This document shows positions 647 through 60,267 of a stretch of DNA of 64,000 bases, piece after piece. The notes beneath the pieces were generated by a model. It was given only the letters and a program-made list of their open reading frames with translations. It searched no databases and had not been told where the DNA came from. Every line of letters starts with the position of its first letter. Position 1 is the stretch's first letter. The position numbers and the translations under genes were made by a program. The stretch is taken from positions 8,835,407 to 8,899,406 of the forward strand of contig OZ026842.1 of the NCBI GenBank assembly GCA_964023205.1, given 5' to 3'. This DNA comes from Lutraria lutraria. Lineage: Eukaryota; Mollusca; Bivalvia; Venerida; Mactridae.

Positions 647-668
647 TTTAATGTGCAAAGGATTTAAT
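647..668 (-). terminator. Possible ATTAAA polyadenylation signals
   Basis: On the minus strand ATTAAA occurs at 668-663 and 652-647, about 60-80 nt after the stop codon. No AATAAA is nearer. ATTAAA is the common second-choice signal; use of these sites is unproven. Confidence 0.35.
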
Positions 669-726: not shown

Positions 727-920
727 TTATGGTGAACAGCTGGGACATAATGTCGAATCGGGAAGACAGTTTACAGTAGTAATGGAACTTGTGTTGAAGC
801 AACCACCACCAGGACATGTTTGTACAGCTAAGGTTCCTTCTGAATAACACCATAAATACTGATGACAGTCTACCGGATGGGGAAGGTAGATATATTCATC
901 TGTATCGGTTGGACATTCAT
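727..920 (-). CDS. Last exon: C-terminal CBM14 module and stop codon
   Basis: After the acceptor TTTATGCAG, 63 residues lead to TAA at 727-729. The module NECPTDTDEY, LPHPVDCHQYLWCYSEGT, TCPGGGCFNTSS, TVNC is the clearest CBM14 in the window: HP-x-D-C-x-x-Y-x-x-C, then C-P-x-G-x-x-F and a final Cys. A Cys-rich tail (STLCPSCSP) ends the protein. There is no GPI-like or second hydrophobic segment, so the chitin-binding end is free and farthest from the membrane. Confidence 0.85.
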
Positions 921-3900
921 CTGCATAAATAAAATAACAAACAGACTAATTTTCATCCGTAGTGCACAAGTTAGTTTAACTTAGATTTCGAAATCATTAT
1001 GTATAATGAATTACGATTATCAGTTCTGGAAATCAATGCGAAATAACATTATTCATTTTGGTGAAGTAAATAAATATGACTTACTTGCATAAACATCTAA
1101 GGTTGTTGTAATTGACTCATCTATCGTCTCATTTTCGACGGTGTCGAAGACAATACATCTGAATTCTGATTGATCATCAGATAGTTGAAATGCGAAAGAA
1201 GATTTTGACACTTTTGTTTCATTAATTTCGCATTGTTCTGATGCCTGGAATTCAACAAAGTCCTTAAAATGTGCATTAGAGTTGGTCCTATTTTGTATTT
1301 TAAGCACACGATTGGTTGATGGGTAACCGACATCTGCAGAACAATACAACGAATCCTGAGAAATCTGTTTTCCTTCAAACGCTATTGGTAGAGTTAGATC
1401 TGGTGTGTTACCTTGTCCTGAAAAAAATGTATTTACCTTGATTTGATGATGCATTTATGAAAAGGTATTTCTATTTTTGTAATCCAGAGAGCTTTATTTC
1501 CAAAGTTTGTTAGCACGTGTTGGCCATGCGGCGCTGATAAATAATTCTAATAAATCAGATAAGATATGAATACATGTTTTACTGCAAAAATAATCATTTT
1601 ACATAACACATTATTTGACAGGGGATAAGCACAATCATGTAAGAATAAGTGTGGAAGTGAAAACTCCTAATAGTATCATCTAATACATACTTTTGACAAA
1701 TTTTATTGTGCATTACAAGTTTGTTAATTATATTGAATATTGAGATTGTTGATTAATTGAACTTGAAATTGAAATTTAATTTCTGTAAGAACGGACAATA
1801 AATCTTTACTAGACAAATATTCACGATTTGTCTTCCAATGTGAAGGGTTTACTTACGTGTTATAACTATTTGAGAGCTAGTTTTGAGCTGGCTGTTGTCT
1901 GGAGAGTAACAGTAGAGTGTTCCTTCATGTTGACATGCTGCTGTGGCTGAAACAACAACTGTCCTGTTATCACCGTCGTCTTGTACCGTTACATTATACC
2001 CAGGTTGGTCACATGTACCTGTTCCTGAACTGTCAACTTGGCACAATTCAATAGACGTTCCATTAGATTGTGTAAGCGATATGGTCGCTCCTGAAGCGCC
2101 ACTTCCACCACTAAGGACACACGTCGATTGAATGACACCACCAATTTCAGCACGGACTGTGCCATCCGTGAAGTATATGTCTGATATACAAAGCAAATTT
2201 GTATATACGTTATGTGTATACTTTTTATATGACAGACACAATCAATATCCATCCTCCAATATTTTATGCATTCGTCGGACAACTTGAGTACATAAAATTT
2301 CCACTACAAACTATATAGAATTCGGCATTGATTACCGGTTAAGGTATTAAGCAATATTTTAAAATACTTTTAAGTGAACACAGTCTATAATACAATAATT
2401 TACGGTTTAAAGAAATTAGTAATGTAATATCATTAGAAAATACACAAAATCGTTCTGATTACACAATTGAATAAAATCACCAAGTAGGCAACATATAAGT
2501 CAATCAGTGATTGTAATTTCAGGAATATGGAATGTTTCAGTGTTATACATAATTATGGTCAACTTTCAATTGCCTGCTCCCTACACTTCTATCAGAATCA
2601 GTTAAATGATTCTCTAAATGTATGCAGATGCTTAGAACCAAAGATAAAAGGTCGTTTAGGGATCCAAATAGATAATTCATTATAAAATTGGAATGATATC
2701 GACATATTACCTGAATTCTCCAAAATTACTTCTTTTATACTTGATACGTATTCTGCGCCGTCTTCTCCAACTGACTTACACTGATATTCAAAGCCCTCGA
2801 TGTCATCACTTACAACGAACGTGTAGTTCACTCCAGATATAAATGAACAATTGTCAGCATCATAGTTGGAGTCTTCCTCGGTAAAAGGAGAGGATTCAAA
2901 ACTGTCAGACGACGACCTTCTAAACATCAACTCTAGGGACCCCTCTGGCTTCCCAACAGGCCCATTGCATGCGACAGTCATCTCCACTCCTCGATAAAAG
3001 CTATCACTGGATGTTGAGATTGTCGGTGCAGACGCACTGCCTGAAATTAGAAATTCAAATTGCCAATTCCAAAACAATGCATTCACCAAATTTCATCAAC
3101 ATTATCATTTTACACAACAATAAACTGCACTTAAGCTTACACATTATATGTGTTACAGATCTAGACATACGTGCATATGTAAAAGACCGTCAAATAGTTC
3201 AGACATGGATAATGTTGTACCTAAACAATACTATGAAACATCAATCTTAAAATGAGAAACAAGGGCGAATAACCAATTCCATGTATAAAGCATATAAGAA
3301 ATTTGAAGCAGATAGAGACATCAAAGAAAAAGTTTAAGCAAGTAAATTGACAGCCATATCTTATAATTTTTTGAAAGATCTTAATATATATATTTAATAA
3401 AGAATATTGTTGATAATTACGTTAAAAAGCAAATAACATTTCCAATGAAATAGAACGGTCAAGAAAATTGTTTTCGAATTTCACCAAACAAAGAACCGGT
3501 CGTAAATCTATGACGTCATGTTAATTTGTTGGCGAGATCTATTACTATTCCGATAACACAATCTTATTGAAATCGGAGAAAGTAAGAACATTCTTAATTA
3601 TGAATGAACGGCATGCGATCATTTGAATATCTTGTTAATAAAACGTACTATGAACATCTAGTTCTATCACAGCCTCGATTTCACTCGTCCCGTTATCATA
3701 TACCATTACATACTGTCCTTCGTGAATACAAATGACTGGGTTAAATTCAGCTTTAATCGACGATGTACCGACTACTAATGAGACTGCACCATTTATAGAC
3801 GATGTATATGTAGCCTCACTAGCGTCACCTGATGACGTGTCCGCGGTTGTGTCAATAAAAGAAGTCCCGCTATTTGATAAAGTAATATCTGTAGCAGATG

Positions 3901-6900
3901 CGTCATCTATTGTAATGTGATATACGCTGCAATCTATCGAAGCTGTTCCACCTATCTTCGCCTCAGTCTTTGTACAGTCCATGTCTGAAAGTTTATCACT
4001 AAGCATGTTATTTATGGAATTACATTGAGCAGCAAATGAGTTCAATTGTACCAGTGTAAATAACCAAGTTTATCTTTCAAAGGTAGGTGAAAGTATAATA
4101 AAAAATCGGATTAAACAAAGAATAGTTGATATACAAGTATTATGATCTTAAGACCCTTTTGGCATTGGCGTCCAGGGAATACCCTGAAATAGGCGAAAAC
4201 ATGAATAAATTAGGTACTAGGAATGAGTTTTTGGCAAAGGTTAGGAAAGCCTCGCTCAACGGCTACTTCGAACAGCATGCACACTTAAGTCTTGGATGCA
4301 CTCTGTCTATGGAAGTGTGATACTGATTGTATCAGCGTTTTGTAAGATGGCAACTTCCTACTATATTGTACATTTTCACTTATTGATATACGTATTTTTT
4401 TGCAACTGGTCAATGTATATTTCAAACACAGGTCGATGCTTGTAATACAACATTGACCAAATGTCTGCTTTGTTGTGAAATAGTTTCGTTTGAACACTGG
4501 ATAAAGTTTGAGCCTCGTTCATTCTGCTGCTAACCTGTCAAGGATTATGTAAGTGTATGTTTACGTTTAAAACTAGAATAATGATGGGTCATAATACCTA
4601 AGTTATTGTGTAAAAATCAACCATCGATATCCAAAATAAAATACATACATTAATACCCGGTTATCAACAGCACATAGTACATCCGTAAAAATATCACATT
4701 TTGTAACAGGTTTTAATCAAAGCACTGATAGTACTATCAGAAGCGAACTTTAAATGTGTTAGGTAAAACATCTTTAAAATTTAAAGCCTGTGCTATCATC
4801 GTTATGAATAAGAATTGTAATGTCAAGTATCTAAATTATAGACTTGACGCAATGTACATATTTAGGCCAATTAACCACAATCACAAAAGGAAAAGCTGCA
4901 CATTTTAACTATTTGACTAGAAGAAATAATTTTATTATAATGCTAAAAGTCATGATATACATTGGCAAATTACAAGCTGCTGCACATTTTGAAAACCAAA
5001 ACAAACTCAGTGCTTTGATCTGTATACTATTACTATGTAAACTATATAAATCATTTGTTATACTGTATACTCAACTTCTGACCTTGGGCCATAATGTAAT
5101 CTCACTACTCTCAGAGAAAATAAAGTGTTACAGAACTACTTTACGGAATAAAACAATTTTCAATATGTAGTATTTTTTGTTACCTCAACAATTTATTAAT
5201 GACTCTTTTGTGTGTATGCATATTTAATTGTAATATTTGTTAGATTTACATTTTGAATTGCCAACCTATTTCCTATGCTTTCTAAATCAACATATTGGAA
5301 CTAGGAACATTGGTGTATAGCTATAGGAGCTTTCGCTCCTAAAAATGTGATCACATTGTTATAGGATATACGGAGTCTATTTGACTTCACGATCCACCCA
5401 TTAATATCCGAATTACGGTCATCACAATTGTTAATTCTACAATGTTAGGTTTTTAACACACATTTACATCGACATCACATGGATGCATGAGTTATTTCTA
5501 AAGTTCATGTTTTGAGAACAATGCACTTTTATTGCCTAAAACCTCCTAGGCGGAACCAGCGAGAAGGCAGTCTTGTGTATTTAAAAAGGTAGGACCCTTA
5601 GAAGTCGGGTCAACGAGTTTGCCCTTTTACCAATGTACAGCATTCCCGTTTGAAACAGCTGTCAATAGCTGTAGAAAGCCATACTGACTTCGAAGCAACG
5701 AGGTCGGCACCGATTGAACACTTACACTTAATAACTCGACATGTTACATAATAGTATATGCTTTTCACGCTAACTCTCATATCGAAAAAAAACACATCTG
5801 TACTAGATTTTACCTATTACGAATGTAATAGTATTCGAAATAAATATGTTACAAATGTGGTTGATACTGTATCGTACATAGTTGATATATTATACAAAGT
5901 CATGTACTTACAAGGATTAATGTCCAAAGGATCTTCCCTACCTGCAGTATATAAAATCATTTAATATTCAATCATGCCAATTTAATTCCGATGATACTTT
6001 ATTATAAGAAAATAAAAATATATTTCGAAATTCATACTTTACAGATATTATTTATATTGCACATAGTGTCATAATTTGTCTGATCTCCACAGTAGACACA
6101 GCGGGACAATAAATTTCATTAAATTGTTACAATTATTTACACATACTAATAAAAGAAATACCGTACATTTTCCAGCGTCTTCACAATCAACACACACTCC
6201 GTCATGGTAACACTCATCAGCTCCTGCACAAAACCTGAATGGCTGCAGTTTCTTAGTTTCTGAATCGGTGCATGTAAATCTCGATCTGCAATCAAATGTG
6301 TTCATTACGGTCGTACCACTTGTTTTGTTGTCGCAGATACTTTCTGAAATATAATTTAACAAATCATTAAATGCATTTAATCGACTGTAGTGCTATCATG
6401 AATACATTCCCGGGATATTTCAAATAATATAATTCAAAGACCCATTCGCTTTTTATATTTTCAAGAATGTTATACAGAACAATAGATTGAATGAAAGTAG
6501 AATATGAGAAACATATTTTATTCATTTAAAAACAATTCTAGTATTTAATAAATAATGCTTTTTTCGGAATGTTTACACTGCAAGTAACAGCCTGTTTCAC
6601 TGATGAGATATCTTTCTAGTTAAGATAAGACTTACTTTAATTTTAACATCCAAAACCCTAATGGGCTTTAAAATAGGCTCAATGTACTTACCATTTAACT
6701 GTTGTTTTTTATAGTGAAGAAGAAAAATCTTACATATAATCAAAGGCCCTTTCATTTGAATCTGGTAATATCATAAACGGTAACAGATCTCGTGTTTACA
6801 AAACAGCAAACTAGTACCTGGTACAACGTATATGACTTCTGCGTCCATGAAAGTATAGTCAGCGTCTTTAACAACACATCGAAATATAGTTTCATTCCAT

Positions 6901-9900
6901 TCTGCTGAGTAACTTCGTGCAAATGCTATCGAATGCACGTTGGAGCACTCCGACGGTTTGTATTCAACTATTGGATAATTTTGATTCACAGTTTGGGTTA
7001 AATTTTCGAACACTCCGTTTTTGTTTGTTTGGATGAAGATAGAGGCATTGTTATATCCGATTTCCGCGGAACACACCGTCTCATACCCGGCCCACAGAGG
7101 AGCATCTTCTACTATATCATATGACAAGTTTATAACTGGAGTTCCTGGTTTCCCTGAAATTAAAATTCTCATCACTAAGTTTACCGATCAAAACCACACG
7201 AACAAGCACGGGAATGAGAGCTAACTAAAATGTTGGTGTTGTCAAGTTCAAATTGAGGTGACAAAATATAGTTAAATAATTTAGAAGAGGCAAAAAAATT
7301 ACATTCTTATTATCAACTTTCAGAAGCTATCATCAAAAAATTTAATAGTAAACAATCACGCATCTTTTGTCATAGTATTTTCAACTGTCATCCATACCTT
7401 CTAGAAACATGAGTACACGTGTTGTTGGCTTTATCTGACAATACATTTTAAGTACAACATCTAGCATTAGCTTATATTATTGGAATACTGTATTTTCATT
7501 TATTTTCGTTGGGCTCAAATTTCGTGTTTTTTTTTACTAAAATGCTATTTTGTGGGCACATAAATTCGTCGATTTTGATTTTTGAAAAGAAATACCTTAC
7601 TACGAAAATTAATGATTCCAGTGTGTACTATATAGTCAACGTTTGCTGTCATGATAAAAAGCTGTTCTATATATAACTTACACTGAACTGAAAGAAACAT
7701 TTCTGCTTGACTTGTAACAATAGTCCCTTTAGGTCGACAATAGTAAACTCCATCATCTCCACATTTCACCGTTATCACGATGGTTAGATTCGCAACATCA
7801 CTGCTTATATCTTTATTAATAACGTATACGTTCTCTTTGTCCTTCATATCGTCTGTACTGTCGCCTTTATTTATTACTATGTCAGTCAGTCCCGACATAC
7901 CGTCAACAATACAAATCATTGTGTAGTTTTCGTCTACCGTTCCTATTCCAGATTCATTTTCGAAATAAACAGCTGAAAAACCAAACCCATGTACATTATT
8001 TTTCCAACAAAGTAAATTTTAACTAAATGTATTTTTCAAATAATAAAACAACAATGTATTGATATATAACCAATAGACAACACTGGGTTTCTTAAAAAAG
8101 ATAAACGACGTTTTATTAAGCAATGCAAGATCATAGTCATACCATCTTCTTATTGTTAAATAAATGAAAAGCTCCAGACTAACCTTCAATCGATGGAAAT
8201 TCTCAAAACTAAACGTCTGCTATAATGATCGTTTGTACAAACCAATGGTACTATAATTTATATTACCCCCCCCTAAAAACAACATTCAAACACCCAACCA
8301 TTCCACAATACTTCCTTTACCCAAACACACCAACCTGCAACCCTTTAAATGCATGTCCTACACATTCACAAAACGGAGCTCAAAACAGAGCCACGGAACG
8401 GTCTGCTGCTAAACGAAATTCATACAAGTAAGACGGACCACCCTCACACTTACGATGTGTAGTATACATTGCTTTGTGCTTCAAAAAGCCAAAGCGCTAA
8501 TGGGTTAACCTACAAACACTAGTAAAAAATTAGCAGATGTTCATAAACTAGAGATACCTGAAGGTTTCAGCACAAGTGTTTCCTCCGCTGATACGTTGTA
8601 TGTGTTGTTTCCATCCCTTGTAACACAACGAATTAAGGAATTGTTCCAGCTCCCGTCAGGATAAAATGATAGATCTAAAACGCCAACATGTTTACAATTG
8701 CTGTCAGTACTTGACGATTCAACACTTTCCGTGTATACTGAAAACTCCGATTCGTCCTGAAAAAAAGAGAATCTGCTTAAACGGAAACAAGTTAACAATT
8801 CATCTTTTTGTATTCAATTATAATGGATAACTATAAGAAAATGATCACCAAGAAGAACATAAACGTACAAAAACCCTTTCTTCAATATATCGTTCCCAAA
8901 AAACCATCGACCAAAATACGACTAATATACACTTCCAGCAGATGGATACAACTTACGTAGACAAGTTGGTCAGTGTATACTACATCTATATGAATGTATC
9001 AAAATAATCAAGATTCCATTGGTATTATGTATTATTTAATAGTCGACCGGTTTCGTCATTTGACGCATCAGGGCAATAAAGCTAAAATGCCCTGATGAGT
9101 CTTATGACGAAACCGGTCGGCTATTAAATAATCTATAATACCTATGGAATGTTGATTATTTTTCATTATTGATTCACTTGACTCGGATAATTTTTATGAG
9201 TTTATATTATAAATTATAATATGATTGTATTTGTATATACATACATGTAGTTCAAGATTGATCCGATATCTGGTTTTTATGGAAAACGAAAAAGTAATTA
9301 CCTCAAACTGTAATTCAAGAAAAAGTTCCGAACGATTCAACCCTTTGTTGTCACGGCCGAGTTCTGCCGTGCAGTTGATTTGCAGGTGTTGATTTACACT
9401 AGCATTACTCTGTACATATAATGTTGGTACGGATGGGGCGGCTGTAAAAACAAGTTACATAATTATATTCTATAATTACGAAGAATGAATCGAACCCGTA
9501 AAACCGAAAAAAAACCGGGTTTCTAATCATTCGATTTTTAAAATCCTTTCAAATGTTAGTTGTTGGTGTCGCGTCATGAAAGAACATTTTAATTTAATAA
9601 CTACAATCGCAAAGTACCAAAGAGAAAGTATTGAGTTTTGAGTGACTCGGTTCAGGAATCTACACTTTTTTCAAACATCAGCTATTTGCTTCAATAACTG
9701 GACAAAATGAGAAAGTGTAGATGTTGTTGGTAAAGTTACTCAAGGATGATAGAAAAGAAATGAGTAACAAATAAAGACTTGGAAAGCAAATTCTGTTCAT
9801 GATCATTCCTATCAACCATAAACTCAATTATTAAAATGATTCGCATGAGTTAGATGTGTTATTTCTGCAAACTGTCTTTTATGTCATTTTCATGGCAGTA

Positions 9901-12900
9901 CGATGTCCCAAATCAAAGCTTACACGTTTGGCTTCATGTGTTCTGCAGCTCATAGATGAGACTTGAATAATCAAGCATAAAAATTACTTAATATAAAATT
10001 GGAGGGTAACAGGAATAATAGAAGAGTGTAAGATAAAGACCTCAGGAAATTTACATTACTTACAAACAATTCGAAGTGACATAACTGCTGTCGATGCATC
10101 ATTTATATTTACAGTATAGTCTCCTTCATGAACACACGAAATATTATCAAAACCCAATGTTAAACTATCCACACTGGGCACAGAGACTGACAAAGTATCG
10201 TCATCATTAGTCCATGGTAAATCATTAATGGTTGCGTTAATGACGACTTGTATGTTATTTCCGTTGTCAGCTCGTTGGACTTCTATGGTAGTTATGTCTG
10301 TAATATCCTGAAGCTCACATTCAAAGACTGCCGCATCTTCAAGAAGTTTCATTGCAGTTACCGGGTTACAATAAACATCTAAAGAATTAAACGAAAATGG
10401 GAGTAAGCACAATCAGTGCATCTTTAGTGAGACCGAAAGTATTATTTTTCTCTGCGGAAAATTAACTTTTCGGACCAGAAAAATTACTTTTTTTATCATT
10501 TTAATCAATCTGACAAGTTATTAAACAAACGTCATCATTTCATTGAGCATTTTACTGAGTACATTTAAGGTCAAGTTTATGAGCACCGAATATATCCGAC
10601 CATCTATGTCTTTTTACTTTTTTATTTATATTATATACTTATATATTTCACTCAGGATCTTCATGGGGAAATAACATGCTTCAATACATTATAGCATAAA
10701 TGGAAATAACACTTATCCATTGCATATCACTCACTTGGCAAACCTAATGTAATTAGATGACCAGATGTGGTTTCATACACCATAGAATCATCTTTAGTTG
10801 TACATCGCACGTAAGTTCCATTCCAATCTGAACCTGGAATGATGTTGTGAGTGACTGTTTCAATGAACGTGCAATCAGTTTCTATACTTTCTTTCTCAAC
10901 ATCGTCCGTATTGTCATAAATGAGATAGGCATTTTCAACCTGAAACCGAATACATATGAAATGAATAAGAATTATGCAGTACAAAAGGTACCCAAATTAT
11001 TATCACAGCATGAGTCTGCCAATCATAATCAGCAATCATTACAGTTAATACTGATTTAAACGTATGTTTTAATAATCCAATTCAATTTAATTCCGACAAG
11101 AAAATCATTAAGCATTTTATTGATTCGAAACTATCTCTCACATCTTCATCTGCAACTTCTAGATAAATAGAAGCCCTTTGATGTCCATCCCCATCTCTTC
11201 CAACAGACCCATTGCACACAATTATCATCTCCTCGTTGGCATTTGGTGCTTCGGGTAATTCGATAGAAGGCAGACCAGGTTCACCTGAAGTAAGATAATG
11301 ATAATACACATTTTATGCATATAATCAAATATAAATCAAAGATAAGATTTATAGATTAAAATAAATCTCAAAGTAATTAAAAGTTAACACTTGTTTCCTA
11401 ATATAGATATTTTCATAATAATGCATACCCAAATCAATACTTCTTTATTTACTGCGAATCATCTATCGTAATCGTAATGTATAAGCGCCCAATATTGGAG
11501 TTAGACATCGTACCGACAGCCTGGAGGATAATAAAATGACTTCCAGTTTTCAACATCAGAGGAAGACCCCAGGTGTACACCAGGCAAAATTCGCAGACAT
11601 TCCATTGCTAGCTAGACAACTCCTCACCAATGAAATTCTTAACCCAGTAAGGATTCATATCTGACCACTCGAACACAGAAGCGAGTTTTATGATATCAAA
11701 ATCAAACAACATCACTACAACACTTACTTTCAACGCCGAGTTCCAATGTAGTGTTCCATTTTTCGTTAACAATGACAGCATAATCTTTATCATTATCGCA
11801 AGAAACATTCACCACACTAAGAATGAAATGCTCTTCAGTTATCGTTAAGTTGACATTATCTGTAATAGCTTGGTCGTCCGGAAGTTGTTCACTGACATGA
11901 ATGTTAGCTCCATTAACTGAAACATCTGTTACGGATTCGCCAATGTCCTGTGTATTACATTTAAACTGCACTGACGTACCTTCCAAGGTTGAGATGGATG
12001 TTCTGTCACAAACGATTGCTAAAATGTATAGTCAAACACTACTGCTAACATAAAAGCAATTGGAATTGTAATAGTATCCAAAACATGAACTTTTGAATAC
12101 GACTTCAGTTGAATATATCATTATTATCTGTGACGTTTTCATGTGGAAAAATACTGAACTTTAAAAAATAAAAGCAAAAAGAAAACACAACACATACTAT
12201 GATACAAGATAAAACATGGTATGAAATATTTCGTTTTGTATGTTGAAGCCCCATTAGCGTTTTGCTGCAGAAAAAATATATACAAAAACATATAATCGCT
12301 GATATCATCCCAAGATAAATATACCGACGAAACAAGTCCTTTTTCGTCTGCAAACACTCATTTCACTGTGATTTTTGCTTTTGTAAATATGTGGGGCGCG
12401 TGACGTCACTTTACTACGTGTGCAAAGCTTGACTGCGGGAAAGCACAGGTGTTCTTAGTTGATATTGAACAAAAAATACGATAGTGGTTTCGGAAACAGT
12501 TTTTCTTGCTATGAAGTATGCACTGGAGGAAAACACCGGATTCCTCTGTTATAGAACAAACAGAAACTATTAGGACCAATACATTTATAAGCTTATGGGA
12601 CTTTAAATAACAGGTCTTTTCAATCAAACAACCGTATCACATTTAATAATTTTACAGTATTTAGAAACTATAAAAATACGACCGTACGTTCAAACATGCA
12701 TCCAACACTGGCACAATCGTCGGTACATTGTATGGTACTATTATCGAAACACTGATCATCCGCACATTTCGGCGGAACTCCTTCTACAGTTCCATCAGCG
12801 TAACAGGTAACAGCCGAGTGACAATAAAATGGATGTTGAATAGTCGTATATTTTTCATAACCTCTACATACCGTTTCTGAAATATGCACGATTGTGATCA

Positions 12901-36900: not shown

Positions 36901-39900
36901 CTTACTTCTATTGCACGAATCTTGTTCTGCAACATACATTTTGCCAGTCGCACATACACAAGTGCTTTCGATGCAATCTGATCGTTTTGTTTTACAACGC
37001 TTTTTCATTGCATTTCCACAAGTTGTATTGTAGGCAACGTCTGAAAATATACGACAAAATCGACTTAATAGCGAAATTACTTCATTGATTTTGCTTTAAT
37101 TCTAAATGCACCAAGTTGTAGGGTATGCCCCTTTAAAAGAAAGTTTGAGGTTGAAGAGAACTTAAAAAACCTACACTTTGATATAGACCGAACAGGCCGT
37201 ACTCATCGGGAGACTGTTATTCCTCTATTTCTTGTATGGTCCTGTGTGGTGGTTTGGTTTCGGTTGAGGAATATTGTGTGGTGGTTGGGATTCGGTTGGG
37301 GAATATTGTGTGGTGGATTGGTTTCGGTTGGGGAATAGTGTGTGGTGGTTGGGTTTCGGTTGGGGAATAGTGTGTGGTGGTTGGGTTTCGGTTGGGGAAT
37401 ATTGTGTGGTGGTTTGGTTTCGGTTGGGGAATATTGTGTGGTGGTTGGGTTTCGGTTGGGGAATATTGTGTGGTGGTTGGGTTTCGGTTGGGGAATATTG
37501 TGTGGTGGTTGGGTTTCGGTTGGGGAATATTGTGTGGTGGTTGGGTTTCAGTTGGGGAATATTATGTGGTGGTTGGGTTTCGGTTGGGGAATATTTAGGA
37601 GAATAGTAAGGTTGGATGTTTTGTATGTGAATCACTTTCATACTCGTATTTTGAATGCATGTTTACCTACTGTTTCTACAATTTGAATGAAAATGTTTAC
37701 CAACTGATTTCAATACGTACATGTTGGCAGGGGACTTGGATCACCATCATTCAATTCTTTAAATGGAACAATGACGACAACAGCAGTAACAATAAAACGT
37801 CCAAGTTTACTGGAAGTACCCGGGTCAGTTTTTATCCCAAGCCTGACGAGAATCACATATGCAGAAGGGGGTGTTTTACCATTCCTTAAAACGATGACGA
37901 TTGTAAAACTTACTACAACGCTGCCGTTTCTGAAACAAAGACAATAGTTATATAACCGGCTCATTCGATTTCGCAACATATAGCTTCTATTTCTAAGTGA
38001 CACGTTGATTTAAATTTATCGATTAAAATTATCAATCGTTAAAAATTAGTATCAATTGAAAATAGGCAATTGACATTTGATTCCGATGTAGATAGATACC
38101 GACCTATCTTGTAAATCATCATCCAACTTAAAGGCCCATTAGCTTTTTGAATTTAGTTAAACAGAACAATAGATAAAATGATTGTAAAATATAAGAAATG
38201 TATTTCATTTGCTCTAAAACAACATTTATACAATGCAATTCTTTAGCCACACCACATACAAATGCTGTCACATGCTTGTTCTTATATTTTGCAATATCAT
38301 TGAAAAAAATACTGTGCTACATTTCTATATGTACTTCGTGATTAAAAAGAAAATTTCAGAATGTTTTTTTATAGAAAGTTAAAGTCATTTTCACTGATAA
38401 GACATCTTTCTAGGTAAAATAAGACCTACTTTAATTTTAACATCCAAAATGCTAATGGGACTTTAATATTTACTAAAAATCGACATAAGATCGAATGTGG
38501 AGCTAGCACATGCACCGTTATCTAAGAGATCTTAGTTTGGTGTTAAATATTCCATCTGAAACATGCTTATTAAAACATAAACATAGACGTTTTGCTACGT
38601 TTAGAATTCTTTAAATTGTCTTAAGTTTTTAACATTTTTATTCTTTTTCTTACTTCAACTCATTAACGACACATCCTTCAAGATCTAGGTCATCGATATT
38701 GCTTGTTTTCGCCTTTTGTGTAATCTGGAACAGAAGAAGATTATATCATTTTTCATATTGCTCACAACGTCTGCAGATAACTGCTTGACGAACAGGTTAC
38801 TGAATCTCTGTGTAATAACATCTGATTCAAAAAAGTAAAATTGGAAATGACATGTATAAATATCAATGTTGCTAATTACTCTTTTGACGCAACATAAAAG
38901 GGAAATTAGTATTGTTTAGTATTGTATAACTGATTACGGTCGGCATGACTTTGTTGACTTAACAATCAAATTATATAAAGATGTTTTTTTTTACAAACGC
39001 CATTTGAATGTCATTTATTATATTGGCGAGCAACGAACGTCAAAAGTAAAGCGAAAAAATATGTTAACAACACAAAATAAAAAATGTCAATACCTCGTCA
39101 CAGAACGCGGTCGAATAATTCTGGAATGTACCCGAGTTAGTGTCTGCCATGTCTGCAGTGTATTCTAAGTTACTGACAGTGGCTTCAAAGTTGTAGGTTC
39201 CTCTCACAGTGTCTGAAATAAGTTTGTTACTGACTTTTTCTGACCGTTACTGCCGTTACTACCTACTAATTTAGATTGTATTAAAATGACTTCACTTATG
39301 ATAAGTTTTAAATGACTTCGCGTTCGAGAAGTGTTACAATATCGTAATACAGACCTAGTTCTCCGAGCACTGACATGTCTGTTATTACAAAACGGTCATG
39401 ATCTTGTATATATTTCCAAGTTCAGGTTATCTGTTCTTTTTTACGAAACGTTTATGCTAGTACAATTATAAAGGAAATACAAACCATCTTCTTTGGATGC
39501 AGTCACTAAAACAGCAACAATAACAGCAATCATAGCCAATAAAACGACAACAAGAGCTGCTATTATCGCGACCTTACACTTCATGCGTGAGCGGCGAGAG
39601 GGTTGTTTATCGTAACTATTAGTTCTGTTTGTTTCATCGGATATACCGCCTGTCGGGTCGTCATAGCCGGAGTGTCCTGTCCATTTCGTGCGTATCTAAA
39701 ATAACAAAACAAACGGACTTCAAAGACGCAGAAGATTGAAAACACTTTAGAATTCCATATGCAAGTATGAAACGTATCCTGAAGGGATTACGAAAGGTAG
39801 GGTAAACTTTGAACGCGAATCCTAATAAGATATCTAGTAAAAAGTTTCATTTTGTTGCAGGAAAAATGAAGACTACTTCATGCCGAATAATCTGCCCAGA

Positions 39901-48900: not shown

Positions 48901-51752
48901 AAAATATGAAAAAAGAATATCGGACATCCAAAAATAATTTGCACATTTTATTATGTAACTGACTATAAGTATTTTAAAATCGTGATGCAGAATGGTGTGT
49001 TGATATTAAACAGGACTGGTATATTTGATGTCGAAGTCGTTGATTTATATAAAATATATTCTGAAACGTGTGTTTCCACATTACTAGACCGAATCAGTCG
49101 CCTGTAGAGACCGCTGCCAATTTTGAAAACTATAATACACCGTCTAGTATGACATTTTAAGATATTCAACTAACTGAAACAAATACAGTAACTGTATTTT
49201 CATTTATTTTCGTTGGGTTCAATTTTCGTGGTTTTTGCTAAAATTGTTATTTCGTTGGGACTTAAATTCGTGGATGTTGATTTTTGAAAAGAAATGCCTT
49301 ATCTCTGCATTTACATTCGTGGTGGTTTGATTTTGTGGATGAGCCACCACGAAATCCACGATATTAAATCCCAACGATAATAAATGATTCCACAGTACAT
49401 TGAACATTTTTAATCGTAGACCCTTTGACAATTTAGTGAATAAACATTCTGATTTAACAGCATTTTAGTCTGAAATATTTTGTCTGAAATGCGCAAACTA
49501 TGTACAATGCAACAGCAAACTTTAATAAAAAATGTATGTTTCTGGTTATATTAAACGTATGATAGAAAGGTACGTGCTTTTTGTGGTTCTTGAAAGCGGG
49601 TGGAAAGGTAAAAATAGTGAGACAGTAGATGTACCGTTACTCAGACCTAATAAAAATCTAGGGTTGCGTAAAAAATTAGGGTAGGTCGGGTAACGAAAAA
49701 CAAACAATTTCTTACGCCCCATAGAAACAACCCCCAAAAAAGCATTTTGATATTCAAATCACCAGCTACGCCACGTGACTTCGATATTTAAAACGTGTTC
49801 TTGTATCGAGATATATGATGACAGCGACATAAAATGAATGATAAAGGAGATGCGATTTCAAAATACCCGGATTTATTGTGAAACACGATGAATGGACGAA
49901 AAAAAAGCTTAAAGTGTGCCTACAATAGCTGATGCAGTAAATAACACGGAAATAGCTAACACATTTGGCCACATCCGTGCACCATAATTGTATCACAGTG
50001 TTTGATGCCAGTACACTGGTGTGGGATAGCCCTGGTATTACTGGACCAATCCCTTCATTTTATTCACAGTCTTTATAATTTTGATATTAAGAATAAAATG
50101 ATATACCCAATTTGTCCGAAATAGGAACATACTAGTAGCCCTTTATAGGCTGTCTTTGTTGCTTTGTTTGTTTGGATTTTATGCCCCTTATAAACAGTCA
50201 AAGTCATATGAGGCGATTAATTCATCTAATCAGCATTCTTGTGAAGAATCAGTACTAGACTCCCCTCCTCCGTAAGCAACTACACATACCTACTTTCTCA
50301 CATATATTGTGATGGTCGGTAGCGGGGCTGAAGCCCACGGCCCTATATCAGTGAGAGGTTACAGTGATTTGAAGTCAGCGACCACAAACCACTCGACCAC
50401 GGAGGCGGGTCTATATTAATAGGTACACTTTGATCAACTTTGTTTCAGGATAAGGGCAGGGAAATACGTGTAGGTGAAACTCATGAAAATATATAATTAT
50501 GAACTGAAACGTCTATGGTTATAGATATGTATGTATTTTGTATTTAACGCTATAATTATAGTACAAAATAATTAAAGTAGCAAGGCCATACTAGTATTCA
50601 TAAAATCGAAGATCATTGAAGGCCTGCTTCACAATGTACATTATCATAATGATTTTTATACCGTCTAGTATGTTGTGAAAATAACAATCTTTGTATTACT
50701 TAAAGTTGTAAAGGGTATAATTATGGATTGCTTTGATTGATTGACCGATATTTTAATTATTGTAAATTTATGCGAGGAAACCAAATAGTCCTTAAACGCA
50801 GTCTGATATCCTATTACCTACAGTGTAAATGCAGGTTAGAAAATATTATTGTATACAAACACTTAGGAATACCAATATAATTGTAGTCGTAGTGAAATTA
50901 GATTTCTTCAAACGGTGAATAGTGTGAAAAACAAACTTTTCGACATAGGCAATATTTACTTGATATGTTTCTCAATTATGACCAAGCCTAATGCGAATAG
51001 CTAACAAAATAGTCATGGAAGAAATGACTTACCTTGCCGAACATATCATGCCATCCCGTCATCAAATCTCTATCAGCAGCCATGCTTGTCCAGCTTCGGT
51101 TCGAGTAACTATCCTTCCGAGATTGGGTCTGGCGAGGCACATATCCGTGCTGTCTGTTATATATATAGTCATAATTGGGCACTTTGTGCTCTATAGAGTG
51201 TGTTTCTCTAAGATCACTTCCATGATGATATGAACGATCAGAAGTATCCACGTCACTGTGAAGCTCTTCTGATAGAGGAACACGACGAGTAGCCCCTGGG
51301 CGATCTAACTCGTTTGCTCTGTATGGATTGTCATTCACGTATTTGTCATTTCTCCCCGAATATGCAATTTCCTCCCTTCTGGTTTGACCAGGTACTCCAA
51401 CATCTTCCTTTCTTGCTGCTCCAAAATTGTCATATATAGTTCGCCCCGTCTGATTCCGAGACGCTTGTTCAGCTGGATCCTTCTTTGCTGCTCTGTAACG
51501 ATTCGATCGTCCGTAGTTCTCAGTTTGGCTTTCATTCAAGTCATAGTCTTTCTTTGGAATGGTATGGTCAATCCAATCAAACCCATAGTCATAACTGTCG
51601 TCGGCTCTTGTGGCACCATACTCATTACGGAGCCGGTTTCCGTCAAGTTTTGACGCAGCTACGTCATTTCGAGTGGCTCTCATTCCTTCTTGGATATATC
51701 TAGAATCACGTCCATAATCGTCATTAGTTGCCCGCCTATGTGGAGAAGCCAT
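727..51752 (-). CDS. Giant type II membrane protein: SEA, EB, 24 Sushi, 10 Ig pairs, 3 CBM14 (36 exons)
   Basis: Exons, minus strand, in order: 51752-51033, 39695-39485, 39212-39094, 38724-38654, 37929-37721, 37040-36906, 34597-33014, 32674-32321, 30845-30724, 30261-29178, 28838-28485, 27009-26888, 26425-25342, 25002-24649, 23173-23052, 22590-21498, 20931-20572, 20378-20248, 20045-19844, 15362-15024, 14014-13649, 12876-12688, 12018-11728, 11284-11142, 10939-10735, 10378-10064, 9441-9302, 8756-8558, 7972-7682, 7153-6818, 6343-6167, 3984-3649, 3040-2711, 2180-1857, 1417-1085, 920-727. All have GT-AG borders and the phases chain to one stop, about 4,312 residues. With no signal peptide and one basic-flanked span, the ectodomain should be C-terminal. 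I do not recognise a named orthologue. A role in recognition at chitinous or mucosal surfaces is inference from domains. Exons may be skipped or missed; transcript evidence is absent. Confidence 0.83.
1085..2180 (-). CDS. Ig pair 10 (two exons)
   Basis: Exons are 2180-1857 (Ig-A: VIQSTCVLSGGSG to ACQHEGTLYCYSPD, with both the early Cys and the canonical Y-x-C-like Cys) and 1417-1085 (Ig-B in one exon: TPDLTLPIAF, SLYCSADVGYP, EQCEINETK, EFRCIVFD). Residues are about 4030-4248. The terminal CBM14 follows. Confidence 0.83.
2711..3984 (-). CDS. Ig pair 9 (two exons)
   Basis: Exons are 3984-3649 (Ig-A: ASIDCSVYH to VICIHEGQYVMVYDNG, with the shifted-cysteine pattern of pairs 6 and 7) and 3040-2711 (Ig-B in one exon: APTISTSSDSF, VACNGPVGKPEG, DNCSFISG, FEYQCKSVG). 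Residues are about 3808-4029. Both exons are phase 1-1. Confidence 0.82.
3985..6166. other. Long intron between CBM14 module 2 and Ig pair 9
   Basis: About 2.2 kb with no supported exon. The open frames at 4126-4497, 4844-5170 and 5758-5964 lack domain content and sit in AT-rich sequence. Confidence 0.5.
6167..6343 (-). CDS. CBM14/peritrophin-A chitin-binding module 2
   Basis: A 59-residue phase 1-1 exon (about 3749-3807): ESICDNKTSG, NTFDCRSRFTCTDSE, PFRFCAGADECYHDGVC, DCEDAGK. The spacing C-x(n)-F-D-C-x4-F-x-C-x(n)-P-F-x-F-C follows the CBM14 layout and matches module 1, including the extra C-terminal cysteines. The HP of typical members is replaced by NTF, so chitin binding is less certain than for the terminal module. 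Confidence 0.75.
6436..6669. mobile_element. MITE-like element, shorter copy
   Basis: Bounded by AAAGACCCATTCGC and CCCTAATGGGCTTT, with the interior ACAGAACAATAGATTGAATG shared with 38130-38464. It lies between Ig pair 8 and CBM14 module 2. Confidence 0.5.
6818..7972 (-). CDS. Ig pair 8 (two exons)
   Basis: Exons are 7972-7682 (Ig-A: TMICIVDGM to VKCGDDGVYYCRPKG, a near-canonical V-set-like DxGxYxC motif) and 7153-6818 (Ig-B in one exon: GTPVINLS, ETVCSAEIGY, SECSNVHSIAF, TIFRCVVKD). Residues are about 3540-3748. The pair is directly followed by a CBM14 exon, completing an Ig-Ig-chitin-binding cassette. Confidence 0.83.
7480..7625. repeat. Interspersed repeat shared with 49185-49395
   Basis: TTTTCATTTATTTTCGTTGG, AAATTCGT and TTGATTTTTGAAAAGAAAT recur in the same order at 49185-49395. 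The copy here is shorter and ends just before the Ig-A exon of pair 8. Confidence 0.55.
8558..10378 (-). CDS. Ig pair 7 (three exons)
   Basis: Exons are 10378-10064 (Ig-A), 9441-9302 and 8756-8558 (split Ig-B). Ig-A has VFECELQD and ISCVHEGDYTVNI, again without the Cys two residues after Tyr. The 9441-9302 exon codes SAPSVPTLYVQS to LFLELQFE with INCTAELG. The next has SNCKHVGV and LIRCVTRD. Residues are about 3322-3539. The short split exons are recognised by homology to pair 6 and by phase, not by length. Confidence 0.8.
9003..9160. repeat. Foldback element (long inverted repeat)
   Basis: Two arms of about 70 bp: TTTAATAGTCGACCGGTTTC on the left answers GAAACCGGTCGGCTATTAAA on the right, with GCCCTGATG/CATCAGGGC near the centre. 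It lies in the phase-0 intron that splits Ig-B of pair 7. Confidence 0.75.
10735..12018 (-). CDS. Ig pair 6 (three exons)
   Basis: Exons are 12018-11728 (Ig-A), 11284-11142 and 10939-10735 (split Ig-B). Ig-A has VQFKCNTQD and VNVSCDNDKDYAVIV; the F-strand Cys after Tyr is absent and a Cys lies seven residues before it. In Ig-B the donor GAAGAT|GTGAGA was chosen because it gives phase 0, as in sister exons, and joins YLEVADED to VENAYLIYD. Landmarks are IVCNGSVG, DCTFIETV and YVRCTTKD. Residues are about 3109-3321. Confidence 0.8.
12245..12604. mobile_element. MITE-like element with AAAGYCCCAT ends
   Basis: About 360 bp with imperfect inverted ends (AAGCCCCATTAGC and GCTTATGGGACTTT) and an internal GCGCGTGACGTCAC. 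It lies in the intron between CBM14 module 1 and Ig pair 6. Related copies are at 35155-36640 and, inverted, from 54697. Confidence 0.6.
12688..12876 (-). CDS. CBM14/peritrophin-A chitin-binding module 1
   Basis: A 63-residue phase 1-1 exon (about 3046-3108). ETVCRGYEKY, IQHPFYCHSAVTCYADGT, PPKCADDQCFDNSTIQC gives the type-2 chitin-binding pattern: HP-x-x-C-x-x-x-x-x-C with an aromatic residue, followed by CFDNST..C near the end. Extra cysteines (TDDCASVGC) extend the C-terminal side, as in the module at 6167-6343. Chitin or GlcNAc binding is inferred from the family; the usual aromatic positions are partly changed. Confidence 0.78.
13649..15362 (-). CDS. Ig pair 5 (two exons)
   Basis: Exons are 15362-15024 (Ig-A: ENAIECDFYGED to EDTYTCKIIYDG, with an extra LDWCSN) and 14014-13649 (Ig-B in one exon, no internal intron). 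The Ig-B is degenerate: the B-strand position reads KLFWVRGELG where its relatives have Cys, and the last Cys is replaced in TFALKAVSMSM, leaving only SECGVE. It still has family landmarks (GVPDF at the start, ESKVIKVV at the end) and is open. Residues are about 2811-3045. A CBM14 exon follows. Confidence 0.77.
14100..14145. repeat. GA-rich microsatellite
   Basis: A run of GAGA with a GGGGGG end, in the intron between the two Ig exons of pair 5. Confidence 0.8.
17510..17775 (-). pseudogene. Decayed coding-like fragment inside the transposon
   Basis: On the minus strand one frame reads HGFGAEWFSGSKMKKFSK and on to a stop at AVFN. A shifted frame then reads EKLWSPVKDAALTLEKMK, KPWKKLQQVL and stops. 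The composition looks protein-like and lysine-rich. It could be a transposase remnant or a captured host exon; I do not recognise the family. Confidence 0.3.
18780..19385. repeat. Interspersed repeat with about 120-170-bp internal units (nested copy)
   Basis: Reiterated phrases such as CTTAGATATTTAGTGTGTAG, TTTGTTCAAATTATGGC and GGTCAAAATTGG recur in this block. They match the blocks at 23545-24440 and 35387-36512. Confidence 0.6.
19844..20931 (-). CDS. Ig pair 4 (three exons)
   Basis: Exons are 20931-20572 (Ig-A), 20378-20248 and 20045-19844 (Ig-B split by a phase-0 intron). Ig-A resembles the triplicated Ig-A (YVEFDSSNYSLKKGEAG) and ends NTCGTYACAILV, but the B-strand Cys expected near SISFTATKY is missing. 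Ig-B keeps VVDCSGY, EILGCTF and LVVRCGLN. Residues are about 2580-2810. No Sushi domain follows. The next intron holds the 4.2-kb transposon. Confidence 0.82.
21498..25002 (-). CDS. Repeat unit 3 of 3: Ig pair 3 plus five Sushi domains, last two diverged
   Basis: Exons are 25002-24649, 23173-23052 and 22590-21498. The Ig exons and first three Sushi domains match units 1 and 2, but below about 21880 the last two Sushi domains (from MSCEPLEV to SCIIPG) are clearly different in sequence while keeping the CCP cysteines. A one-base intron indel upstream of the large exon separates this copy from the others. The exon ends CCGG|GTAAAT in phase 1. Residues are about 2057-2579. Confidence 0.85.
23545..24440. 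repeat. GGCCATGATGG-family interspersed repeat, copy in unit 3
   Basis: Runs from TTGAGCTTTTGTGATCG to CCATCATGGCCCTTTTA with degenerate internal units (AAGTTTGTTCAAATTATTGC, GGCTCCGCCCTGGGGTTAAC). It is carried along in the triplication at 27381-28276 and 31217-32112. The preceding 23330-23510 is rich in CGATAG/GCGCAC phrases. Confidence 0.65.
25342..28838 (-). CDS. Repeat unit 2 of 3: Ig pair 2 plus five Sushi domains
   Basis: Exons are 28838-28485, 27009-26888 and 26425-25342, exactly 3,836 bp below their counterparts in unit 1. The Ig-A exon is identical in translation to both other copies. In the large exon I see two amino-acid changes from unit 1: Pro for Thr in SHPTSSD, and Lys for Thr in ICKNGSW. 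Residues are about 1537-2056. The structure is the same as unit 1. Confidence 0.87.
27381..28276. repeat. GGCCATGATGG-family interspersed repeat, copy in unit 2
   Basis: Copy of the block at 23545-24440, shifted by 3,836 bp through the tandem triplication. Confidence 0.65.
29178..32674 (-). CDS. Repeat unit 1 of 3: Ig pair 1 plus five Sushi domains
   Basis: Exons are 32674-32321 (Ig-A, phase 1-1), 30845-30724 (first half of Ig-B, phase 1-0) and 30261-29178 (second half of Ig-B fused in frame to five Sushi domains, phase 0-1). Ig-A has VLVCNVTDF and ends in EDCGAYICLV, close to the DxGxYxC F-strand motif. Ig-B has NVSCKGYY, FTGCMYV and SLRCSLDY. The Sushi domains begin at DACVDEF and end at RQNCTLHG. 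Residues are about 1017-1536. The unit is nearly identical to the two that follow. Confidence 0.87.
31217..32112. repeat. GGCCATGATGG-family interspersed repeat, copy in unit 1
   Basis: Third copy of the same intronic block. It differs at single positions, for example TTTTAGCTTAAA for TTTTATCTTAAA near 32110. Confidence 0.65.
33014..34597 (-). CDS. Exon 7: nine consecutive Sushi (CCP) domains
   Basis: One 1,584-nt exon, phase 1-1, codes nine Sushi repeats (about residues 489-1016). Each has the CCP pattern of four cysteines with a hydrophobic-Gly-Tyr/Phe motif before Cys 3 and a conserved Trp before Cys 4, for example ECEDGYEW, SCEEGY, DDGYEL, NGTWEIPPIC and NGTWSANVTC. Repeats 1-5 are unique in the window. 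From about 33640 to 33014 the exon matches the last Sushi domains of the triplicated units almost base for base. Sushi domains bind complement proteins, glycans or protein ligands. NxS/T glycosylation sites are frequent. Nine Sushi domains in one exon is unusual, since many animals keep one per exon. Confidence 0.88.
34811..34944. repeat. Foldback element near the nine-Sushi exon
   Basis: ATATCACATTTCTAAGAGGG at the left pairs with the right end CGTCTTAGATATGTGATAT, and AATGTTGACC with GGTCAACATT near the centre. It is a hairpin-forming palindrome in the intron between exons 6 and 7. Confidence 0.75.
35155..36640. mobile_element. MITE-like element interrupted by a nested repeat
   Basis: The left part begins AAAGCCCATTAGC (35155) and the right part ends TATTGGACTT (36640). 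They match the uninterrupted element at 12245-12604, including CGCGTGACGTCAC and CCGGATTCCTCTGTTATAG. Between about 35387 and 36512 lies a GGCCATGATGG-family repeat in the opposite orientation to those at 23.5-32.1 kb, so it inserted later. Confidence 0.65.
36906..37040 (-). CDS. Exon 6: EB/EGF-like cysteine-rich module
   Basis: Forty-five residues (about 444-488) carry the spacing NTTCGNAMKKRCKTKRSDC, then ESTCVCATGKMY and DSCNR, six or more cysteines in an EB/EGF-like layout. It is a symmetrical phase 1-1 exon between the SEA domain and the Sushi array. The exact family (EB module or degenerate EGF) cannot be fixed by eye. Confidence 0.72.
37244..37595. repeat. 32-bp minisatellite, about 11 copies
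   Basis: The unit is close to GTGTGGTGGTTGGGTTTCGG followed by TTGGGGAATATT. Most copies differ by one or two bases. No frame contains a stop, so long spurious open frames appear on both strands. It lies in the intron between SEA exon 5 and the EB exon. Confidence 0.92.
37721..39212 (-). CDS. Exons 3-5: SEA domain with GSVVV cleavage motif
   Basis: Exons 39212-39094, 38724-38654 and 37929-37721 code about residues 311-443. The first has the SEA-type opening GTYNFEATVSNLEYTADM and ...STAFCDE. The second links ITQKAKTSNIDDLDLEGCVV. The third begins in the KNGSVVVSF strand, matching the GSVVV strand of self-cleaving SEA domains such as mucin MUC1, where cleavage falls between Gly and Ser (here G376/S377). 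After it come further beta-like segments rich in Val and Ile. The donor of the third exon was chosen as ACAT|GTACGT because only that phase keeps the next exon open. SEA domains next to a membrane helix typically act as a shedding or force-sensitive break point. Confidence 0.8.
38130..38464. mobile_element. MITE-like element with AAAGGCCCATTAGC ends
   Basis: Inverted ends AAAGGCCCATTAGC and GCTAATGGGACTTT bound about 335 bp in the intron between SEA exons 4 and 5. The interior (ACAGAACAATAGAT) matches the element at 6436-6669 and not the TGACGTCA version, so this is a second subfamily sharing the ends. Confidence 0.6.
39485..39695 (-). CDS. Exon 2: juxtamembrane segment and transmembrane helix
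   Basis: This exon codes residues 241-310. A polar stretch ends in the basic cluster RRSRMKCK, followed by about 24 hydrophobic residues (282-305, mostly Val, Ala, Leu and Ile) and then TASKED. Positive charge before the helix and none after it predicts N-in/C-out, type II topology, matching the lack of a signal peptide and the extracellular modules downstream. It starts in phase 0 after TTTTAG and ends in phase 1 at GATG|GTTTGT. Confidence 0.85.
40706..44195. repeat. 20-bp minisatellite, roughly 170 copies, in intron 1
   Basis: The unit is TAACCTTCTTCATAGATAAG with variants (TTATTAATAGACAAG, ATAGATATG, ATAAATAAG). In 41.2-42.2 kb the variants recur in a fixed order, giving an 80-bp higher-order unit of four. 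Copies below 42.7 kb are more uniform, and those above it carry ATAAATAAGG variants. Confidence 0.93.
48110..48215 (-). repeat. tRNA-derived SINE-like sequence
   Basis: On the minus strand GGTTCGAATCACGG fits a Pol III B box, and CAGGCTCAGTTTGTGGGC upstream fits an A box. The flanks do not make an acceptor stem, so it is not a tRNA gene. Confidence 0.5.
49185..49395. repeat. Interspersed repeat with inverted TTCGTGG/CCACGAA parts
   Basis: Contains TTTCATTTATTTTCGTTGGG at the left and CCCAACGATAATAAATG at the right in inverted form, with ATTCGTGGTGG and CCACCACGAAAT at the centre. Related to 7480-7625. Confidence 0.6.
50180..50410. repeat. SINE-like repeat
   Basis: CAGTCAAAGTCATATGAGGC and GAATCAGTACTAGACTCCC match 46195-46290. 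The far end on the minus strand, CCGTGGTCGAGTGG, resembles a tRNA-Ser A box. Confidence 0.5.
51033..51752 (-). CDS. Exon 1: N-terminal cytoplasmic tail, residues 1-240
   Basis: The ATG at 51752-51750 has A at -3 and G at +4. The open frame runs 240 codons to the donor GGCAAG|GTAAGT and ends in phase 0. The product is hydrophilic, rich in Arg, Asp, Asn, Tyr and Ser, and has no signal peptide or hydrophobic run, so it looks intrinsically disordered. About 20 tyrosines are scattered through it. KYVNDN fits a YxN (Grb2-type SH2) pattern, and others such as TIYDNF and NYDYIYN are acidic or Asn-rich. There is no clean ITIM or ITAM. Basic residues are spread throughout. The exon is joined to the membrane exon across an 11.3-kb intron by matching phase; this is the longest jump in the model and the first to test with RNA. 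Confidence 0.8.
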
Positions 51753-55935: not shown

Positions 55936-55984
55936 ACATGTAGTTGGAGTGATTGACTTTATCAAAAGAGCAACATTTTTGTCT

Positions 55985-56840
55985 GGTTCCCAGCCTAATG
56001 CTCCTTTGACATGTTGTGTTAGGGCAGGGTATACAGGCTAGGCTGATATCTTGTCTGGTTCCCCGCCTAATGCTCCTTTGACATGTTGTGTTAGGGCAGG
56101 GTATTCAGACTAGGCTGATATTTTGTCTGGTTCCCAGTCTAATGTTCCTTCGACATGTTGTGTTAGGGCAGGGTATTAAGGCAAGGCTGATATCTTGTCT
56201 GGTTCCCCGCCAAATGATCCTTTGACATGTTGTGTTAGGGCAGGGTATTCAGGCTAGGCTGATATCTTGTCTGGTTCCCCGCCTAATGCTCCTTTGACAT
56301 GTTGTTTTAGGGCAGGGTATCTAGGCTAGGCTGATACCTTGTCTGGTTTCCATTGCTAATGTTCCTTTACAAAGTAGTGTTTAGGGCAAGTAATCCATAC
56401 TTGGCTGATATCTTGTCTGGTTCCCTGCCTAATGCTCTTTGACACGCAGTGCAAGGGGCAGGTAGTCTAGACTAGGCTGATATCTTGTCTGGTTCCCTGC
56501 CTAATGCTCATTTGACACGCATTGCCATGGCAGGTAATCCATACTTGGCTGATATTTTGTCTGGTTCCCTGCCTTATGCTCCATTGACACGCAGTGCCGG
56601 GGGCAGGTTATCCAGACTAGGCTGATAAATTGTCTGGCTCCCTCCCTAATGTTCCATCGACACGTAGTGTTAAGGGCATGTAATCCAGAATAAGCTGATA
56701 TCTTGTATGGTTCCCTGTCTAATGTTCCTTTGACACGCAGTGCCAAGGGCATGTCATCCAGACTTTAAAGAAGCTGATATATTGTCTGGTTCCCTGCCTA
56801 ATGCTTCATTGTCACGACACGTAGTGTCAGGGTTCGGAAT
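55985..56840. repeat. About 73-bp minisatellite, about 12 copies
   Basis: Each unit has GGCTGATATCTTGTCTGGTT, CCCTGCCTAATGCTCCTTTG, ACAYGYWGTG and AGGGCAGGTA. The first five or six copies carry ACATGTTGTGTTAGGG and the later ones ACACGCAGTGCCAGGG, so two variant blocks adjoin. It lies upstream of the gene. Confidence 0.85.
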
Positions 56841-59936: not shown

Positions 59937-60267
59937 TAGATTATAATATTATGCAATCATATGTATGCAAGTACAAAGGCATGCTTTTATTTTAACTTCC
60001 TCATTCATTGTGTATTAGTCAAAGTCATTTTCTTTCAAACCTAATATAATCATGTCATAATGTTATAAGTTAGAAAGCGTAATGATATCGTACATCACAT
60101 ATAGATTATAATAGTATGCAATAATATGTATGCAAGTACAATGGCATGCTTTTATTTTAACCTTCTCATTCATTGTGTACTAGTCAAAGTCATTTTCTTT
60201 CAAACCTTAACATAATCATGTCATAATGTTATAAGTTAGAAAGCGTAATGATATCGTACATCACATT
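59937..60267. repeat. Two-copy tandem duplication of about 165 bp
   Basis: The block with AGATTATAATATTATGCAAT and AGAAAGCGTAATGATATCGT is repeated at once from about 60102 with a few changes (for example TAGTATGC for TATTATGC). Confidence 0.85.

Follow-up and report, generated by a model that had tools for sequence, protein, structure and literature searches.

A putative type II receptor of Lutraria lutraria combining SEA, Sushi, immunoglobulin and chitin-binding modules, with a terminal cassette homologous to that of a second gene

A 64,000-bp stretch of the Lutraria lutraria genome (contig OZ026842.1, here C11; C11:8835407-8899406, hereafter the window) was found to carry on its minus strand a chain of 36 exons, modelled to encode 4314 amino acids with no internal stop and a stop codon at 727 (Table 1). 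We give a probability of about 0.5 to the reading that these exons form one gene for a type II receptor of about 4,300 residues, in which a self-cleaving SEA stalk would bear a recognition ectodomain of Sushi, immunoglobulin (Ig) and CBM14 modules. The V/C2-like/CBM14 cassette of this gene is homologous to that of a second gene on the same contig.

The exons were chained by a dynamic programme based on splice matrices and codon log-odds, with no homology input; it was trained on open frames picked by the analyst, the ATG at 51752 was supplied by hand, and GT/AG at the exon ends is guaranteed by its construction. With three ends set by hand (the exon 2 donor behind the transmembrane (TM) helix, the exon 32 donor, and exon 36, which was extended to the stop), the model agreed with the 36 phase-consistent exons and about 4,312 residues of a preliminary description. 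In the region 51000-700 the chain scored 1206 (35 exons) versus 26 for the opposite strand in the same programme, 36 and 29 for the 30-kb left flank, 25 and 24 for another 50 kb of the chromosome, and 2.6-16.6 for 8 shuffles, these controls being disadvantaged because the codon table was derived from this gene. Chance as the origin of the chain was rejected on these scores (1206 versus at most 36 in the strand, flank, chromosome and shuffle controls). Unchained picking of single exons gave 20 exons, many with in- and out-phases agreeing with the later chain, and some small picks were dropped from the chain. By eye, a nearer alternative donor would shorten exon 5 in phase. Since phase-1/1 modules chain easily, phase consistency is no proof of one transcript, and the chain supports the exons more than it supports a single transcript.

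Hydropathy analysis revealed only one peak above 1.6 (3.45 at residues 284-302; next best, 1.58), and the N terminus was assigned to the inside because RRSRMKCK sits on the N side of this peak, as the type II topology proposed earlier had it. The Pfam SEA profile matched residues 317-387 (E 1.3e-6; 29 bits versus a cut-off of 26.4), covering only positions 3-74 of its 106, and the proposed SEA stalk was borne out in this way. According to PMC6954182, GSVVV in SEA domains leads to autoproteolytic cleavage, the halves remaining joined until force separates them. Judged by its motif, this protein is predicted to cleave itself at G376/S377, and the presence of GSVVV in the SEA domain would fit the earlier notion of a surface or shed molecule. 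The six-cysteine module taken earlier for EB is present, but its EB match (E 0.12) fell under the cut-off. In searches of the own genome, which here and below covered the 728.5-Mb assembly (71 contigs), exon 1 matched only itself, and exons 2-6 gave five own matches followed by C17 (E 0.11) and C11:21.87 Mb (E 5.2), with no full paralog. The last of these, C11:21871680-21871853, is a SEA-like half exon (E 5.2) located about 12 kb from CBM14 exons of the opposite strand.

Behind the SEA domain lie Sushi and Ig exons, some of them in a tandem array of three 3,836-bp units. The 24 Sushi repeats claimed earlier were obtained with weak matches counted (9 + 3 x 5; nine stretches in exon 7 and five in one unit at E<=10), but 16 (7 + 3 + 3 + 3 in exons 7, 10, 13 and 16) were found at E<=0.001. 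Each unit preserves the reading frame; two copies differ at 4 of 3,836 positions, and the third differs from each at 49 alignment columns. Two copies this alike point either to an expansion that took place in frame and very recently, or to a faulty assembly. When the own genome was searched with one unit pair, all 11 matches fell within the window and no full paralog was found.

The ten Ig pairs of the preliminary description held as far as the pairing is concerned, with a V fold in the predicted structure of exon 34, but the Pfam matches were weak: among 12 single-exon Igs, V-set was matched by three (best E 0.008) and Ig_3 by one (E 3.8e-4), and phmmer of one Ig pair against PDB gave a best E of 0.079. 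Similarly, among the three CBM14 modules claimed, the terminal one in exon 36 passed the cut-off when scored alone (CBM_14, 23.9 versus 22.1 bits, E 4.8e-5; 17.6 bits within a longer piece), but exons 22 and 31 are CBM14-like by a shared cysteine pattern only, aligning by five invariant columns, four of them Cys.

A search of the own genome with exons 32-36 returned seven matches, namely the five own exons, C11:6425497 (74%, E 3.9e-32) and C11:34038353 (40%, E 0.37), the last of which sits in the second cassette gene (about C11:34018982-34039000, + strand). This gene has a 5,554-aa stop-to-stop frame (34018982-34035644) with 224 N-glycosylation sequons, 3 Cys and a heptad period of 3.5 at 42x mean power, followed by a V-set (29.0 versus 26 bits), a C2-like Ig (C2-set_2, 17.7 versus 21, below the cut-off) and two CBM14 modules (23.6 and 24.1 versus 22.1). 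Profiles made from window exons only matched its V domain at E 1.7e-5, its C2-like domain at 1.3e-7 and its CBM14 modules at 9.3e-6 and 0.0033; the best of 1489 decoy open reading frames (ORFs) reached 0.38, 0.30 and 0.023 (in a CBM14 locus), respectively, the segmental copy of exon 36 (7.2e-20) aside, with the domains of the second gene hand-spliced, the decoys raw ORFs, and the decoy set leaving out any locus that overlaps the window or the second gene. The V/C2-like/CBM14 cassette is homologous in the two genes and stands in like order at the C terminus; the Ig/CBM14 part is not confined to the window gene. The second gene differs in that its head is preceded by a coiled-coil frame that may span as many as 5,554 aa, has two CBM14 modules, and has its V and C2-like domains cut by introns at other places. 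Its cassette in turn gave 12 matches in the own genome: five own, three weak ones on C16, exon 36, the copy of exon 36, and two CBM14 matches at C11:4123621 (E 3.0e-4) and 34079334 (E 0.0038). The locus at C11:4.12 Mb has a C2-like piece (E 7.1e-5, without a Pfam hit) and, together with it, a CBM14-like exon (E 6.2e-6; Pfam 16.5 versus 22.1 bits, below the cut-off), and the CBM14 exon at C11:34.08 Mb scored 26.8 bits, above the Pfam cut-off. Since the cassette recurs in the second gene and parts of it at 4.12 and 34.08 Mb, the window protein is one of several that bear the whole cassette or some of its parts.

Exon 36 and its 3' flank lie within a 17.9-kb inverted segmental duplication (C11:8818530-8836453, window -16877..1047, versus C11:6425413-6444777). 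Between exon 36 and its copy, 12 of 194 positions differ, with 11 substitutions causing 10 amino-acid changes and one silent change, versus 10 of 841 in the near flank (Fisher 1.5e-4) and 331 of 15,686 in the rest of the segment (p 0.0011). This contrast should not be given much weight: 9-19 differences were also seen in other 250-bp stretches of the segment (one had 87, probably by misalignment), and the 80 kb around the copy contained no match to the Ig exons of the gene. A full-length paralog at C11:6.43 Mb was considered and rejected: whole-protein tblastn against 80 kb revealed only the terminal CBM14 exon and a weak cross-match of exon 22 onto it. By eye, TNF-ligand-like frames were noticed inside the duplicated segment (window -16744..-14253, + strand), as were two copies of flavin monooxygenase-like frames at C11:6415001-6425000, beside the orphan CBM14 exon.

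The closest known design is that of the VCBPs. In PMC4757023 and PMC7947342, V-type Ig plus a chitin-binding domain (CBD) is described as a gut immune design in Ciona and amphioxus, VCBPs being made up of a leader peptide, a pair of V-type Igs and a single CBD (PMC7947342) and binding host chitin and bacteria (PMC4757023); a review places VCBPs in echinoderms (PMC5877582), and VCBPs are given for cephalochordates and FREPs for molluscs in PMC13428168. The window gene shares with them a V-type Ig and a C-terminal chitin-binding domain, here of CBM14/peritrophin-A type and predicted from exon 36, and likely use at chitin-bearing surfaces, but it has a type II TM helix, SEA, 24 Sushi, ten V/C2-like pairs and three CBM14-like modules. 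Instead of a leader peptide, its model opens with a cytoplasmic part of 280 residues followed by a single TM helix. The first Ig is V in the one exon modelled; for the second Ig the model was poor, and its relative in the second gene was below the C2-set_2 cut-off. The pair resembles a V-C2 arrangement of CD80/nectin type rather than the V-V arrangement of VCBPs, as measured on the second gene, whose V-C2 pair had CD80 as its best PDB match (E 7.8e-5). Because a leader is lacking and a V-V pair is probably lacking, we did not class the gene as a VCBP, although its product would act much as a VCBP with several heads and a membrane anchor. CD80/B7 and nectins, which are vertebrate proteins, share the order V then C2 and are not known to carry CBM14, Sushi or SEA. 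SEA with a GSVVV-type site is shared with SEA-cleaved surface proteins (MUC1, adhesion GPCRs with SEA), but the single hydropathy peak above 1.6 does not match the seven TM helices of an adhesion GPCR. In type II SEA serine proteases, SEA adjoins the type II TM helix; no protease family matched in a Pfam scan of six pieces of the model, which took in one of the three near-identical units, the Sushi exons of the other two being covered by a separate scan. Mollusc FREPs are invertebrate recognition proteins with Ig domains, but no fibrinogen domain was among the Pfam matches of the window model. The earlier statement that no family is known with this combination stood, as no description of SEA/Sushi/Ig/CBM14 was found in the open-licence literature searched, nor any report of a mollusc VCBP by title or abstract.

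By analogy to secreted VCBPs, it is possible to picture how such a receptor would work. Its tyrosine-containing N terminus of about 280 residues would lie in the cytosol, followed by one TM helix and a SEA domain that would cut itself at G376/S377, and the ectodomain of about 3,900 residues would be held non-covalently until released by force or engagement. The V-type/C2-like Ig pairs, three times closed by CBM14-like modules, may serve again and again along the protein as recognition heads that have an affinity for chitin or glycans related to it, with the Sushi arrays acting as a spacer and possibly as an extra binding surface. The product could then be a molecule that is held on the membrane, can be shed, and serves in recognition or in an opsonin-like role at surfaces that are mucosal or bear chitin.

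Several observations weigh against this reading. Judged from the exon chain, exon 1 and the Ig/CBM14 exons may belong to separate transcripts, and the 3.8-kb units are so alike that they may stem from misassembly. There is no clear Pfam Ig match, with unrelated families scoring about like V-set (DUF6296, 0.0096); the C2-like Ig was modelled poorly, with a pLDDT of 63.3 and nothing matched by Foldseek at E<=0.001, its profile found no Ig in PDB, and the core Trp is absent from most window Igs in the alignment, as judged by eye. Two of the three CBM14-like exons (22 and 31) had no Pfam CBM14 hit, and the CBM14 profile gave one chance-level match in PDB (E 6.3). Protein searches, which reach relatives with shared exact 5-residue words and similar length, gave no candidate at E<=10 among 7990 scored for the C-terminal 1734 aa, none among 956 for residues 241-490 of the full protein, and, when a 1016-aa query was used over its residues 241-1015, 6189 candidates with 7 hits at E<=1, each of these with Sushi and none with SEA; no homolog of matching architecture turned up within that reach.

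The best placed alternative, although we regard it as doubtful, is that the chain runs through two or more genes whose modules are uniformly of phase 1: upstream, a type II membrane protein of SEA-Sushi(-Ig) make-up, and downstream, a V/C2/CBM14 protein that is secreted and starts from a separate leader exon, which would probably fall in the 4.5-kb gap 19844-15362. Phase-1/1 modules chain freely, and a hydrophobic ATG exon with a phase-1 donor was located at 16444-16348, with two overlapping ATG starts at 16673 and 16622; leader candidates numbered 5 on the gene strand and 0 on the other versus 2.7 per 64 kb in a 240-kb control, and the second cassette gene puts a like head on a quite different stalk. 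However, these candidates are few, of low specificity, and two overlap, and V/C2 pairs flank the gap on both sides and occur among the Sushi exons, so that the upstream part already carries the Ig pairs of the head. A structural extracellular- or shell-matrix protein with Sushi, Ig and chitin-binding modules, and no recognition receptor, is quite unlikely: shell-matrix proteome literature on molluscs turns up under these module names, but the type II TM helix, the 280-residue cytoplasmic part, the SEA cleavage motif and the V-type Ig argue against it, as does a terminal CBM14 exon that changed more than its near flank between the duplicates. Least likely is an alternative promoter by which one gene would yield both a membrane form comprising exons 1-36 and, from exons 20-36, a secreted form resembling a VCBP, since the leader candidates at about 16.4-16.7 kb, whose donors are in phase with exon 20, are near background.

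Outside the gene, the next gene downstream on the same strand (window -3585..-8351, -) has an apparent signal peptide and PAN and SRCR domains, and repeated frames resembling SLC1/EAAT transporters lie at window 67165-78071 (+ strand), both by eye. Intron 1 contains a 3.5-kb minisatellite (window 40711-44193; 20-bp unit, 175 copies), and further tandem repeats are located at 37243-37595 (32 bp), 55979-56805 (72 bp) and 59934-60266 (165 bp). Scanning the window for Rfam families and tRNAs returned nothing.

Table 1. Features of the modelled gene, in window coordinates
Feature	Position	Strand	Basis or remark
Exon 1: start codon and predicted 240-residue cytoplasmic N terminus, out-phase 0	51033..51752	-	single own-genome match
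Exon 2: basic juxtamembrane stretch and sole TM helix (residues ~282-306)	39485..39695	-	hydropathy
Exon 3: SEA, first part	39094..39212	-	Pfam SEA
Exon 4: SEA, middle	38654..38724	-	Pfam SEA
Exon 5: SEA, remainder	37721..37929	-	Pfam SEA
GSVVV, SEA autoproteolysis motif (G376/S377; residues 376-380)	37911..37925	-	motif meaning from PMC6954182
Exon 6: six-cysteine EB/EGF-like module	36906..37040	-	Pfam, EB below cut-off
Exon 7: nine Sushi repeats	33014..34597	-	9 stretches E<=10, 7 at E<=0.001
Tandem array, 3,836-bp unit (V-Ig exon, two C2-Ig exon parts, Sushi exon)	21766..33739	.	
Unit 1: exons 8 (32321-32674, V-Ig), 9 (30724-30845), 10 (29178-30261)	29178..32674	-	C2-like Ig, then 5 Sushi
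Unit 2: exons 11 (28485-28838), 12 (26888-27009), 13 (25342-26425)	25342..28838	-	
Unit 3: exons 14 (24649-25002), 15 (23052-23173), 16 (21498-22590)	21498..25002	-	
Exons 17-19: V-Ig (20572-20931), C2-like Ig (20248-20378, 19844-20045)	19844..20931	-	
Exons 20-22: V-Ig (15024-15362), C2-like Ig (13649-14020), CBM14-like (12688-12876)	12688..15362	-	
Exons 23-31: three V/C2-like Ig pairs, then CBM14-like (6167-6343)	6167..12018	-	
Exons 23-28, Ig pairs 1-2: 11728-12018; 11142-11284 + 10735-10939; 10064-10378; 9302-9441 + 8558-8756		-	
Third Ig pair of exons 23-31: 7682-7972; 6818-7153		-	
Exons 32-35: V/C2-like pairs 3649-3984, 2711-3040; 1857-2180, 1085-1417	1085..3984	-	exon 34 = modelled V domain
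Exon 36: terminal CBM14 and stop codon at 727	727..920	-	CBM_14 23.9 bits, cut-off 22.1
Poly(A)-signal-like hexamers ATTAAA x2, at 668 and 652	647..668	-	3' of stop

Tentatively, this probable protostome may possess a VCBP-like family of its own, with a V/C2/CBM14 head in conserved order on several stalks and with germline diversification by in-frame triplication and a fast-changing terminal chitin-binding exon; the stalks, put forward with the same reserve, would be a type II Sushi array that can be cleaved and a very large, glycosylated coiled coil. The in-frame triplication of modules also makes it possible to ask whether a recognition receptor varies in copy number. If the family reading is true, the same head would occur in more than one gene on different stalks, making it testable whether the design is ancient or evolved on two occasions, and whether the form that is held on the membrane and cleaves itself came before the secreted one or takes its place.
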